A stretch of DNA of 64,000 nucleotides, taken from Comamonadaceae bacterium OH2545_COT-014. Lineage in GTDB: Bacteria; Pseudomonadota; Gammaproteobacteria; Burkholderiales; Burkholderiaceae_C. Below the pieces are notes generated by a model. That model was not told the DNA's origin. It was given only the letters and a program-made list of their open reading frames with translations, and did no database searches. The first letter of the stretch is position 1; every line of letters begins with the position of its first letter. Below, piece after piece: positions 5,841-55,511 of the stretch. The stretch covers positions 62,001 through 126,000 of the forward strand of contig RQYR01000005.1 of NCBI GenBank assembly GCA_003859965.1, in the 5' to 3' direction. The position numbers and the translations under genes are program-made.

Positions 5841-6848
<1,008 letters not shown>

Positions 6849-34279: not shown

Positions 34280-34290
34280 CCGCCCCTGCC

Positions 34291-34370
34291 TTCGAGGAGC
34301 GTTGCAGCGCCGCTTGCCGGTGTGAGGCTCGGTGGCACATCTCCCTTCTTTTCGCAACGACGCTCGCCCA
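34291..34370 (+). promoter_or_regulatory. S-adenosylhomocysteine (SAH) riboswitch of ahcY
   Basis: The leader shows the conserved SAH-aptamer blocks in order: CGAGGAGCGTTGCA (34293-34306), GTGAGGCTCGG (34322-34332) and CGCAACGACGCTC (34353-34365). GAGCG pairs with CGCTC, and CGAG with CTCG for the pseudoknot-like core. SAH riboswitches are known upstream of ahcY in beta- and gammaproteobacteria and turn expression on when SAH accumulates. The placement, 74 bp before the ahcY ATG and just after a TATAAT, fits. Confidence 0.85.
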
Positions 34371-34443
34371 CTGATCGCGTGTGGTGAGCCTGTGTGTTCA
34401 CCCGCCAGTGGTTTTGCCAATTGCCCTGCCTCTGGAGCCAACC

Positions 34444-47435: not shown

Positions 47436-48125
47436 ATGAGCACCGGGGGCGTGCTGCGCGCCGTGTTCCTGCGCCCGTGGCTGGCCGCGTGGCGCCAGCC
47501 GGCCGACGGGCTGTGGCATGCGCTGTTCTTCGTGGTGGTGGCCAGCCTGTTTCCGCTGTCGATGCGGCCGGAGCCGGCCACGCTGGCCCTGCTGGCGCCC
47601 GGCGTGCTGTGGGTGGGCGCTTTGCTGGCCGTGCTGCTGGCGTGCGCCCGGCTGTTTCAGGATGAGCTGGCGCAAGGCTGGGTGGACCAATGGCTGTTGA
47701 CCTGCGCGCGCACCGGCCTGCCGCTGTCGCTGCTGGTGGCGGCGCGGCTGGCGGCGCAATGGGCGCTGACGGCGCTGCCCGTGCTGGCCGTGGCGCCGCT
47801 GGTGGCCGTGCAGTTCGGCCTGGGCGGCGCGGCGCTGGGCGTGCTGCTGGCGGCGCTGGCGCTGGGCACGGCGGCGCTGGTGCTCATCACCGGCGTGGCG
47901 GCGGCGCTGGCCGGGGGCGTGCGCGGCGCGGCCCTGCTGGTCATGCTGATCGTGCTGCCGCTGGTCACGCCCGCGCTGGTGTTCGGCAGCATGGCCGTGC
48001 ATGCGGCCATGCGCGGCGCATCGCCCGTGGCGGAGCTGGCCTTGCTGGGCGCCATGCTGGCGGTGCTGGCGCTGGTGTGCCCGCTGCTGGCGGCCGCAGG
48101 CCTTAAAGCGGCGGCGGAGCACTGA
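47436..48125 (+). CDS. ccmB: heme exporter membrane protein CcmB
   Basis: A 229-residue membrane protein with six helices: LWHALFFVVVASLFPLSM, LLAPGVLWVGALLAVLLA, LVAARLAAQWALTALPVLAV and others. It has the CcmB marks ARLFQDELAQGWVDQWLL and VLPLVTPALVFGS. It forms the ABC permease with CcmA and CcmC. The ATG at 47436 is used because family members start shortly before FLRPWL. The last A of its TGA stop begins a complete family 1 repeat. Confidence 0.93.
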   Translation: MSTGGVLRAVFLRPWLAAWRQPADGLWHALFFVVVASLFPLSMRPEPATLALLAPGVLWVGALLAVLLACARLFQDELAQGWVDQWLLTCARTGLPLSLLVAARLAAQWALTALPVLAVAPLVAVQFGLGGAALGVLLAALALGTAALVLITGVAAALAGGVRGAALLVMLIVLPLVTPALVFGSMAVHAAMRGASPVAELALLGAMLAVLALVCPLLAAAGLKAAAEH

Positions 48126-48289
48126 AAACCTGTTCAAGATCTCTGCGCGGCGTAGCAAGCAAGCGGATGGGGGCGGTCTGCTTCCGTTGCAAAGCCTTGT
48201 CATAGCGCGAGCCGTGGCTGCGTTTTGCGCCTTGCGGTCTATCCCCAATCGCTTGTTGCCCACTCGCGCCGAGATCTTGAACAGGTTTT
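48125..48289 (+). repeat. family 1 repeat, copy C (complete, 165 bp)
   Basis: Bounded by a perfect 19-bp inverted repeat, AAAACCTGTTCAAGATCTC at 48125-48143 and its complement at 48271-48289. Compared with other copies both ends carry the same substitutions (AAG to AGAT), so the two ends have changed together. It starts on the last base of the ccmB stop codon and separates ccmB from ccmC. Confidence 0.82.
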
Positions 48290-53165: not shown

Positions 53166-53317
53166 CTGCCGCAAGAAGTGGTTCCGTATGCCCTTGTACC
53201 CCTTTCTTTTTTGGTGTCCGATGTGTCCATACCCGCTTCGGCGGATGACCGCAGGCCGCAACAGAAGGCCGCCAGCGCCCCGCGGTCGCTGCGGTCGCAT
53301 GAGTGACGAGGTTTTTC

Positions 53318-53899
53318 ATGACTGAACCATCACCCGGTTTGCCCGCCCCCGCCCCCCGCCGCCGCTGGCCCCTGTGGGCGGCCTTTGCCGCCGTGGCCGC
53401 GCTGCTGGCCTTGCTGGCCGTGGGGTTGACGCGCGACCCGCGCCAGCTGCCCAGCGCCCTCATCGGCCAGCCGTGGCCGGCGCGCGATCTGCCACTGCTG
53501 GAAACGCCCGATCGCCGCATGGGCCCGCAACACTGGCGCGGCAAGGCGCGCGTGGTGAACCTGTGGGCCTCCTGGTGCGCCACCTGCCAGCAGGAACACC
53601 CGGCGCTGATGCGCCTGGCCGCCGAACTGAAAGCCGCCGGCCATGCCGACCAGCTCATCGGCCTGAACTACAAGGACCAGCGCGCCGCCGCGCTGGGCTG
53701 GCTGGGGCGGCACGGCAACCCGTTCTTCGCCTCGCTGCAAGACGCCGATGGCCGGCTGGGCATTGACCTGGGCGTGTACGGCGCGCCCGAAACCTTCGTC
53801 ATTGACGCGCAAGGCATCATCCGCGCCAAATACGTGGGCGCGCTCACCGATGACATCGTGCGCGCCCAGATCCAACCCTTGCTGGAGCAACAGCGATGA
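53318..53899 (+). CDS. ccmG: thiol:disulfide interchange protein CcmG/DsbE
   Basis: A 193-residue membrane-anchored thioredoxin-fold protein: N-terminal helix WPLWAAFAAVAALLALLAVGL, the active site WASWCATCQQEHP, and the CcmG-type GLNYKDQRAAALGWL and GAPETFVIDAQGIIRAKYVG with cis-Pro. It reduces apocytochrome c or CcmH so heme can be attached. ACGAGG lies 6 bp before the ATG; a GTG at 53303 is less likely. Its stop overlaps an ATG in the ccmH frame. Confidence 0.95.
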   Translation: MTEPSPGLPAPAPRRRWPLWAAFAAVAALLALLAVGLTRDPRQLPSALIGQPWPARDLPLLETPDRRMGPQHWRGKARVVNLWASWCATCQQEHPALMRLAAELKAAGHADQLIGLNYKDQRAAALGWLGRHGNPFFASLQDADGRLGIDLGVYGAPETFVIDAQGIIRAKYVGALTDDIVRAQIQPLLEQQR

Positions 53900-54669
53900 A
53901 TGCTTTCACCCGCCACGCCGCAGGCCGCCAGGCTACGGCGCACGGTCTTGGAGCCTGTTCAAAGCCCCTGCGCGGCGGGCATTCAAGCGGCTTTGGGCGG
54001 TCTGCGGCGTGGCCAAACTTGCCAATGGCACGAGCCATTGGCCGCGTTTTGCGCCTGGCATCCCATCCCAAACCGCTGATTGCCCACTCGCGCCGAGACT
54101 TTGAACGGTTTCTTAGGCTTTTTTGGGCCTTGAGGCATGCCTGTATTGCCTTGATAGCTATATTTTTCGCAGCAATTGCCAGCGCCCAGAACACCGCGCC
54201 GCCCGCCGCGGGCGCGCCCGACCCGCTGGCCGACCGCATGCACCGGCTCACGCAGGATTTGCGCTGCCTGGTGTGCCAGAACGAATCGCTGGCCGATTCG
54301 CACGCGCCGCTGGCCATGGACCTGAAGCGCGAAATCCGCACCCTGATGGCGCAAGGCCAGAGCGATGCGCAAATCCGCGACTTCCTCACCCAGCGTTATG
54401 GCGATTTCGTGAACTACCAGCCCCCGCTGCGCGCGGGCACTCTGCTGCTGTGGGCCGGCCCGCTGCTCATGCTGGGCGCGGGCGGCTGGCTGGTGTGGCG
54501 CAGCGTGCGCGCCAGCCAGCGCCGCCCGTTCGCCCATGGCGGCCCGGCCGGCAGCCACGGCGATGGCGCCACCCTGGGCGCGGGTGCGGCGGGCGGCCCT
54601 GATGGCGCTGGCGATGGCTGCCACGGCGGTGATGGCGGCGGCGGTGACTGCAGCGACGGAGGCAGGTGA
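53896..54669 (+). CDS. ccmH: cytochrome c maturation protein CcmH with repeat-derived N terminus
   Basis: CcmH is the periplasmic thiol protein that reduces the CxxCH motif of apocytochromes; its active site is LRCLVCQNESLADSHAPLA, followed by a C-terminal helix (TLLLWAGPLLMLGAGGWLVW). The frame opens at an ATG coupled to the ccmG stop (ATGA) and gives 257 residues, about 90 longer than usual at the N terminus. Residues 19-73 are coded by a family 1 repeat and 74-93 by a family 2 repeat; the latter forms the hydrophobic signal (ACIALIAIFFAAIASAQ). Alternative starts are ATG 54025 and TTG 54130. The Gly/Asp-rich tail is also unusual. Confidence 0.88.
   Translation: MNAFTRHAAGRQATAHGLGACSKPLRGGHSSGFGRSAAWPNLPMARAIGRVLRLASHPKPLIAHSRRDFERFLRLFWALRHACIALIAIFFAAIASAQNTAPPAAGAPDPLADRMHRLTQDLRCLVCQNESLADSHAPLAMDLKREIRTLMAQGQSDAQIRDFLTQRYGDFVNYQPPLRAGTLLLWAGPLLMLGAGGWLVWRSVRASQRRPFAHGGPAGSHGDGATLGAGAAGGPDGAGDGCHGGDGGGGDCSDGGR
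53950..54113 (+). repeat. family 1 repeat, copy D (complete, inside ccmH)
   Basis: GGAGCCTGTTCAAAGCCCC at the left and its degenerate complement GACTTTGAACGGTTTCT at the right. The interior (GCGGCGGGCATTCAAGCGG, GGGCGGTCTGCGGCG, TTGCCAATGGCACGAGCC) matches copy A in reverse. The ccmH frame stays open through all 164 bp. Confidence 0.8.
54115..54173 (-). repeat. family 2 AT-rich repeat encoding the CcmH signal segment
   Basis: On the minus strand TGCGAAAAATATAGC, then ACAGGCATGCC, TCAAGGCC and CAAAAAAGCCT. It starts 1-2 bp after the family 1 copy, so the two elements are back to back. Confidence 0.7.
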
Positions 54670-55511
54670 TGAGCGCCTGGCAAATGTTCATGGCCGCTGA
54701 CTGGCTCTGGCCTTTTGTGCTGCTGGGCATGGCGCTGGTGGGGCTGCTGACGGCCAGCCTGGTCTGGGCCAGCGGCAGCGAAGCAGCCTCGGCAACACAT
54801 GCAGCAAATGCAGCAAATGCAGCACAGACGCCCCGGCCCGCGCCGCGCAGCGCCTGGCTGTTCACGCTGGCCGTGCCCCTGCTGGTGATGGCGCTGTACG
54901 CCGCGCTGGGCCACCCGCGCGCCATCAACCCGCGCGAACGCCAGCCTGTGCCCGACGAAGCCGCCGAAACCATGGTGGGCAAGCTGGCCGAACGCCTGCA
55001 AAGCCAGCCTGACAACCTGCAAGGCTGGCTGATGCTGGCGCGCTCGTACAAGGTGCTGGGCCGCTACGCCGAATCCGCCCAAGCCTGGGAGCGCGCCAAG
55101 GATCTGGCCTGGAACGACGTGGACAGCCTGGCCGAATGGGCCGAGGCGCGCATTCTCAGCCAGGGCCAGCGCTTTGACCGCCGCAGCCAGGAGCTGCTGG
55201 CGCGCGCCATGAGCCTGGACCCCGACCACCCCGGCGTGCTGCTGCTGCGCGGCCTGGCCGCGCTGGACCGGGGCGACACCGACGCCGCGCGCAAAGCCTT
55301 CACCACCTTGCGCAACCAGTACCCCGACGCCAGCCCCGACCGCAACGCGCTGGACGCCGCGCTGGCCCAGATCGACGCGGGGCAGGATCCGCGCCAGCGG
55401 CGCGGTGAACCGGCGGGGCAAGGCAAGCCAGAAGCGCCGCCAGGGCCGGTGGATAAAGCCCAAGGCGCTCCTGAAAAAGGAGCGTCTGATAAAGTCCGGC
55501 CGGGCGGCTGA
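54669..55511 (+). CDS. ccmI: cytochrome c maturation protein CcmI (TPR protein)
   Basis: A 280-residue apocytochrome chaperone: two N-terminal helices (WPFVLLGMALVGLLTASLVW, SAWLFTLAVPLLVMALYAAL) and a TPR domain at about 105-235 (LAERLQSQPDNLQGWLMLARSYKVLGRYAESAQAWERA, LLARAMSLDPDHPGVLLLRGLAAL, ARKAFTTLRNQYPD). TPRs bind the C terminus of apocytochrome c. The ATG overlaps the ccmH stop. The last residues (APEKGASDKVRPGG) are coded by a family 2 fragment. Confidence 0.92.
   Translation: MSAWQMFMAADWLWPFVLLGMALVGLLTASLVWASGSEAASATHAANAANAAQTPRPAPRSAWLFTLAVPLLVMALYAALGHPRAINPRERQPVPDEAAETMVGKLAERLQSQPDNLQGWLMLARSYKVLGRYAESAQAWERAKDLAWNDVDSLAEWAEARILSQGQRFDRRSQELLARAMSLDPDHPGVLLLRGLAALDRGDTDAARKAFTTLRNQYPDASPDRNALDAALAQIDAGQDPRQRRGEPAGQGKPEAPPGPVDKAQGAPEKGASDKVRPGG
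55464..55495 (+). repeat. family 2 repeat fragment at the ccmI 3' end
   Basis: GGCGCTCCTGAAAAAGGAGCGTCTGATAAA has the first hairpin (GCTCCTGAAAAAGGAGC) and the following GTCTG of the variant in ygiQ; the second half is missing. It codes part of the CcmI tail. Confidence 0.45.

Follow-up and report, generated by a model that had tools for sequence, protein, structure and literature searches.

A dispersed palindromic repeat encodes the predicted signal-peptide core of CcmH in a group of related species and recurs at the start of other exported proteins

In the window, by which we mean the whole 64,000-nt stretch of Comamonadaceae bacterium OH2545_COT-014 DNA analyzed here, the 5′ part of ccmH is made up of two dispersed repeats in succession: a MITE-like element (family 1) and a palindromic repeat (family 2) whose copy encodes the hydrophobic segment of a presumed signal peptide (Table 1). 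The explanation that we regard as quite probable as a whole is that the family-2 copy forms the n- and h-regions of the CcmH signal peptide following an ancestral recruitment, that the MITE came later, and that translation begins at the ATGA-coupled start. Family 2 is also an element in the predicted signal peptides of at least three other families of exported proteins.

Table 1. Features at the ccmG–ccmH junction, in positions of the window.
Feature	Coordinates	Strand	Remarks
ccmG (thiol-disulfide interchange protein)	53303..53899	+	ORF; Pfam Redoxin, AhpC-TSA and Thioredoxin matches; stop overlaps ccmH start
Shine-Dalgarno-like GGAG	53884..53887	+	8 nt 5′ of the ccmH ATG; putative role
ccmH ORF, 257 aa	53896..54669	+	ATGA overlap with ccmG; Pfam CcmH
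Left TNA-type trinucleotide TTG	53948..53950	+	possible target-site duplication; 30-copy alignment, by eye
Family 1, MITE-like, near-palindromic body, 162 bp	53951..54112	+	in frame in ccmH, residues 19-73
Right TNA trinucleotide TTA	54113..54115	+	30-copy alignment, by eye
Family 2 copy encoding the hydrophobic signal segment	54116..54183	+	frame a; R2, R1 and matrix test
Presumed signal-peptide core and cleavage region (ACIALIAIFFAAIASAQ)	54139..54189	+	from the translation; putative
Remaining CcmH: LRCLVC, presumed C-terminal membrane segment, Gly/Asp/His/Cys-rich tail	54190..54669	+	segment and tail by eye

Pfam CcmH (PF03918) matches the translation from residue 92 onward (E 1.4e-41; 141.6 bits versus a gathering score of 25), and the LRCxxC motif that marks CcmH is present as LRCLVC. 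A Sec-type pattern of basic n-region, hydrophobic core and AXA site can be seen by eye (ALRH..ALIAIFFAAIASAQ), with a predicted n-region of ~80 residues, an unusual length for a Sec signal peptide. The first-pass annotation had proposed that a ccmH frame coupled to the ccmG stop reads through family 1 (residues 19-73) and then family 2, and this arrangement is borne out by the ORF, the repeat borders and the R2 and R1 profile matches described below. Its further proposal that the original start was displaced is not supported by the genus comparison: the ATGA overlap is retained, with the frame open from it, in all 11 genus junctions read (the junction table consists of these 11, with G042 left out). 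A consensus scan of the ccmG–ccmH junction found no promoter or terminator. The Gly/Asp/His/Cys-rich tail of CcmH (GGPDGAGDGCHGGDGGGGDCSDGGR, about 54590-54669) has an unusual look, and in ccmI a short tandem of GCAAAT-like units at 54796-54828 encodes repeated Ala-Asn. Elsewhere in the window, an SAH riboswitch match above the gathering score lies at 34288-34372.

Family 1 occurs in multiple similar short copies, as MITEs do, with at least 40 own-genome places at E ≤ 6.3e-22 (the best 40 of 161 candidates; 7 further rows among the 47 listed in the search are the opposite strand of copies already listed). Most aligned copies have terminal inverted repeats resembling GAACCTGTTCAAAG...CTTTGAACAGGTTC around a near-palindromic body, and the RNA fold of the MITE is strong (−88.4 kcal/mol, z −6.3, 0/200 shuffles as good). 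TNA target duplication is found in the MITEs of some IS5-like elements, and family 1 resembles such TNA/IS5-type MITEs in its terminal inverted repeats, TNA-type flanks, length of about 162 bp and copy number of at least 40. When 30 copies were aligned and their borders judged by eye, 11 of the 26 with readable borders had an identical TNA triplet on both sides, while the ccmH copy has TTG/TTA. Body and one TNA-type flank together measure 165 bp, which is exactly 55 codons. We considered whether the uninterrupted frame across the MITE reflects selection and rejected this, because 19 of the 30 aligned copies, that in ccmH among them, are open in the ccmH frame. A second family-1 copy (48108-48287) occupies the gap between ccmB and ccmC, starting near the ccmB stop; the mechanical ccmC ORF (48225) runs into this copy, and ccmC is therefore easily mis-called.

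Family 2 encodes the CcmH residues after 73, to about 93-96, with the segment ACIALIAIFFAAIASAQ inside; the reading frame is the one in which the GCT of AGCTAT forms a codon (frame a). As BLAST detects this family poorly (20 family-2 rows at E ≤ 10 with the ccmH copy as query), profiles were built from copies outside ccmH: R2 from 9 own-genome copies, with seeds from BLAST with the ccmH copy, and R1 from 11 copies of relatives, with seeds from BLAST with the G023 ccmH copy. R2 matches ccmH at 54126-54178 (C35:116126-116178; E 2.7e-9, and 3.4e-11 when run on ccmH loci), and R1 at 54108-54183 (E 0.014). At E ≤ 0.0112, R2 finds at least 150 own-genome copies; ccmH is the 8th among the best 150, and all seven above it are training copies. 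Because the seeds came from BLAST with ccmH copies, the rank of ccmH under R2 and R1 is not fully blind; we rejected it as a fully blind test and added a matrix test. This INDEPENDENCE check used a matrix built on 136 copies of the same genome, none of which BLAST had retrieved with the ccmH copy as query, although it is not wholly independent, since R2 had found those 136. The ccmH copy scores 42.7 versus a leave-one-out median of 42.2 (65/136 copies lie above it) and ranks 6th of 127,870 window places, the five above coinciding with other R2 copies. The ccmH copy scores as a typical member of family 2, beyond chance. The earlier claims that family 2 harbors the only plausible export segment and that this segment is repeat DNA both hold, given the position of ACIALIAIFFAAIASAQ inside the R2 match and the rank of ccmH under the matrix. 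In family-2 copies outside the G000 type, the consensus has two hairpin motifs, AGCGCTTG..CAAGCGC and AGCTAT..ATAG; the family-2 part of ccmH has no stable RNA structure beyond chance (z 0.5).

The family is large in several genomes. Among the best 150 candidates per genome, R1 copies at E ≤ 0.01 number at least 150 in G014, 144 in G010, 137 in G023, 85 in G015, 70 in G022, 54 in G008, and 17 each in G007 and G000. R1 matches at E ≤ 1e-4 occur in 16 of 60 genomes drawn from the bacterial family (best 80 candidates per genome), and five of these 16, all of other genera (G047, G048, G054, G066 and G082), have 26 or more matches.

Within the genus, 12 of 29 genomes have a ccmH match; the other 17, some of them incomplete, have none, and cytochrome c maturation system I therefore looks patchy in the genus. 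Family 2 is common to the ccmH 5′ end of eight of these 12 members, clear in six and decayed in two. R1 matches there on the same strand with E-values of 2.8e-14 (G023), 5.8e-12 (G010), 9e-9 (G008), 1.7e-7 (G014), 0.014 (G000) and 0.023 (G015), and weakly with 0.041 (G007) and 0.48 (G022); G001, G002, G006 and G042 have no R1 match at E ≤ 1 at this end. The E-values of G007 and G022 alone mean little, because R1 also matches these loci outside ccmH, at E 0.0016-0.16 (e.g., 0.051, 0.068 and 0.16). Scored with a matrix of 39 G014 copies, ccmH is the top-ranking place in G014, G022, G008, G010, G023 and G007 and the second-ranking one in G000 and G015, out of 6,470-6,824 places per locus. Under this matrix, G022 (−19.4) and G007 (−4.3) both score above the best place anywhere in the G002, G001, G006 and G042 loci (−30.0 to −35.2). 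The eight carriers form one group in a ccmG+ccmH tree of 34 loci (support 89, or 100 without G007), with the four non-carriers as its sister group (support 100). In 91 other ccmH loci, comprising 12 from other families of the order and 79 named records (identity up to 67%), family 2 matches at ccmH in 0/91, and one locus, L103, matches elsewhere.

This distribution separates the two repeats. A joint arrival of both is not supported, as family 2 is common to the eight-species clade and the MITE is found at ccmH only in this genome (1/11 genus junctions read). The junction comparison yielded no relative that lacks the repeats and encodes the same hydrophobic segment, the case named beforehand as refuting, because the relatives without family 2 found there encode different, ordinary-looking signal peptides. 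A hydrophobic core lies 30-39 residues before the LRC motif in 65 of 86 parsed ccmH loci (out of 92 loci attempted, with L077 as the single genus locus). In G001, one of the four non-carriers, the ccmH n-region (L010) holds a third palindromic sequence in frame, ATTCCCGC..GCGGGAAT; among 504 fetched loci, 10 contain this palindromic pattern, and several of the 10 are records that overlap at a single place.

Other genes, too, have family 2 in their signal-peptide regions. For a DUF2147 protein (identified by Pfam in the G000 and G023 copies), this is the case in 11/20 genus loci by R1 (E ≤ 0.012) and 10/20 by R2, most other loci having ordinary signal peptides by eye; AQM(T/S)P(V/I)GTW then follows in 15 of the 17 motif-parsed loci, with 3 loci unparsed. 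For a TPM-domain protein, the count is 10/24 loci at R1 E < 0.1, of which three fall at E 0.01-0.1, a range where chance matches occur, and 7/24 at E < 0.01; for a lipoprotein, it is 6/22 (E ≤ 1.7e-7). These 6 do not include L486 (G016, E 0.0076) and L492 (G021, E 0.001), where R1 matches antisense to the lipoprotein gene across its start; the palindrome may give a hydrophobic segment in reverse reading too. In the G023 lipoprotein (L260/L480), a further repeat-like stretch, SPSPRWGEGRGEGL, precedes family 2 in the n-region and parallels the MITE of ccmH. The signal segment of a DHOR protein of G008 (L174) is repeat-like by BLAST only and was left uncounted. In another genus (G054), a gene named TPM for its resemblance to those loci likewise has a family-2 copy as its signal peptide, and across two other genera 1 of 20 family-2 copies lies in a signal peptide. 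Copies also lie in frame inside lnt (L287), where the copy reads as the hydrophobic AAIFFAALW, and hemD (L349); an RlmI-like methyltransferase (L380, L195) has an internal in-frame copy, seen by eye only.

By our reading, most family-2 copies genome-wide lie outside signal peptides, with enrichment assessed roughly, by eye. Among the at least 150 own-genome copies, the N-terminal in-gene copies accepted by eye are those of ccmH, DUF2147, a C24 lipoprotein (start unsure, no Pfam match) and an outer-membrane efflux lipoprotein, the last in another frame. The 91 copies from other genomes (101 matches minus duplicates) include three, in ccmH, DUF2147 and the lipoprotein, all of G023. These counts consider same-strand genes only, and the remaining open frames, most of which seem to begin 3′ of the repeat, were discarded by eye. 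A signal-peptide-like segment in frame a is present in only about 10% of family-2 copies: a hydrophobic core with preceding net positive charge occurs in 15/150 own-genome and 11/91 other copies, in-gene copies included, compared with 0-3 and 0-1 copies in the other five frames and 3-7/964 random positions per frame. Counting the hydrophobic core alone, frame a gives 17 and 12 copies, and one antisense frame gives 9 and 8.

We propose that a family-2 palindromic repeat was recruited at ccmH in the ancestor of the eight species and kept in frame. One frame of the repeat would read as a run of basic residues and then ALAAI(L/F)(L/F)IA or a near variant, as in readings of the FKRF.PLALVLKALAAILLIA type. 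Because this frame reads a ready-made signal-peptide core, an in-frame copy near the 5′ end of a gene could take over the export signal, with the cleavage site probably supplied by the host flank; the older export signal would have become dispensable after the landing of family 2 and been lost. In this genome, the 55-codon MITE would later have been inserted between the coupled start and family 2, in a tolerant n-region, lengthening this cytoplasmic region to about 80 residues. CcmH would then be translated from the ATGA-coupled start and inserted N-in, with the repeat-encoded helix acting as a signal peptide or signal anchor; the positive charges ahead of the helix (RRDFERFLRLFWALRH) appear to fit this orientation.

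Signal peptides are of low complexity and mutually alike, and the resemblance to family 2 might then reflect convergence of proteins on a generic signal peptide, a reading that we find extremely improbable. If the likeness existed at the protein level only, resamples of synonymous codons would score the same as the observed sequence. With genome codon usage, 18 ccmH and DUF2147 segments instead gave z-scores of 3.8-7.6 and five further segments 5.2-9.1, versus −0.6 to 2.0 for five control signal peptides placed by eye; the segments beyond the eight from ccmH were picked for matching family 2. With GC3-matched resampling, 24 segments had z-scores of 2.0-5.6 (median 4.1), compared with −1.1 to 1.5 for the five controls. 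The observed score was reached by 0/5000 resamples in 17 of the 24 segments and 1, 1, 1, 2, 12, 25 and 161 times of 5000 in the other seven, the weak segments being those of G022 (z 2.6, 25/5000) and G007 (z 2.0, 161/5000). Pool copy L437, itself the G010 lipoprotein, was removed for the five further segments and for the GC3-matched run. The GC3 of 23 segments is also low (0.29-0.62 versus 0.84 in long genes), although two of the five controls are likewise at 0.62. The likeness thus extends to the DNA, beyond that of the peptide. An assembly error behind the MITE, or a decaying ccmH, is only marginally less improbable: some MITE copies do lie at contig ends (C46, C1 and C25), but the junction in question is internal to contig C35, ccmH has an intact frame and LRCLVC motif, and ccmI, which lies downstream, has an open frame.

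A more serious, though still unlikely, alternative is that translation starts inside the repeats, at ATG 54025 or TTG 54130, which would leave the MITE as untranslated leader sequence and give a signal peptide, MRHACIALIAIFFAAIASA, of ordinary length. A start at TTG 54130 would indeed give a signal peptide of textbook length. Neither internal start, however, has an AGGAG-like site 5′ of it by eye, in contrast to the GGAG 8 nt before 53896, and the retention of the overlap and open frame across the genus junctions also argues for the coupled start. As to the history of the in-gene copies, we are evenly divided on whether a single ancestral insertion at ccmH was followed by simple vertical descent, with no later rewriting by other copies. 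Place, strand and frame are identical in all eight clade members, and the nearest-neighbor lists are mixed for several species. On the other hand, the sisters G000 and G015 bear different family-2 types, and 9 of 12 in-gene copies best fit the subfamily of their own genome out of seven, where chance would give about 1.7, in a comparison whose pools are unequal (5-58 copies) and come from different picking models, with one pool copy being the G010 lipoprotein itself. Outside the 12 are ccmH of G007 and DUF2147 of G016, G011, G019, G003 and G020, from genomes without a pool, as well as DUF2147 of G008. As the nearest-neighbor lists are mixed, the own-genome fit stays a hint, and repeated rewriting of in-gene copies is plausible. 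The broader idea that family 2 is a portable signal-peptide cassette, repeatedly supplying and rewriting the signal peptides of orthologous exported proteins lineage by lineage, whether through new insertions or through gene conversion between its numerous copies, such that secretory signals in this bacterial family would co-evolve with a selfish repeat, we hold as tentative and somewhat doubtful.

The preferred reading, of an ancestrally recruited family-2 copy serving as n- and h-regions behind a coupled start, has partial precedents. REP elements are known by their GTAG/CGTC tag and associated RAYT transposase. For the present repeat family, no description was found in the full-text literature searched, which left most subscription journals outside its scope; the accessible part of PMC2755013 deals with CRISPR only. 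According to the accessible parts of the sources, a predicted repeat-derived signal peptide is already known from a Yersinia repeat, and the YPAL/RU-2 and ERIC/RU-1f fusions of enterobacteria mostly concern small or putative proteins (Delihas 2007, PMC2759123). Set apart from these by description, the present case concerns orthologous genes, including a core ccm gene, across many species and more than one gene family. Rickettsia palindromic elements (RPE; Ogata 2000, 2002) are, in the available portions of PMC2229807 and PMC10969869, dispersed palindromes in frame inside conserved genes, and the one insert with an assayed product is described as neutral or slightly detrimental. Compared by description with these portions, family 2 is likewise a dispersed palindrome found in frame in conserved genes (ccmH, DUF2147, TPM and, internally, lnt and hemD), but unlike RPE, it would take the place of an N-terminal export signal. 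A survey of signal-peptide gain and loss in Enterobacterales asked the same question of how whole signal peptides become inserted and, in the accessible part of the paper, considered transposable elements and found none near N-termini with ISEScan (PMC5952966). Short repeats like family 2 would probably escape an insertion-sequence finder. The kind of event is thus already known; what is new, as far as we have searched, is its maintenance in an orthologous core gene across many species and its recurrence across gene families and two genera, neither of which we found described in the full-text literature searched.

Gene starts in genomes bearing such repeats are easily mis-called. Comparing species that have the repeat in a given gene with species that lack it offers ready natural experiments. 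For the question of how whole signal peptides are gained or replaced, it matters that short dispersed repeats lie here in the predicted n- and h-regions of orthologous proteins from several gene families, one of which is a cytochrome c assembly factor.
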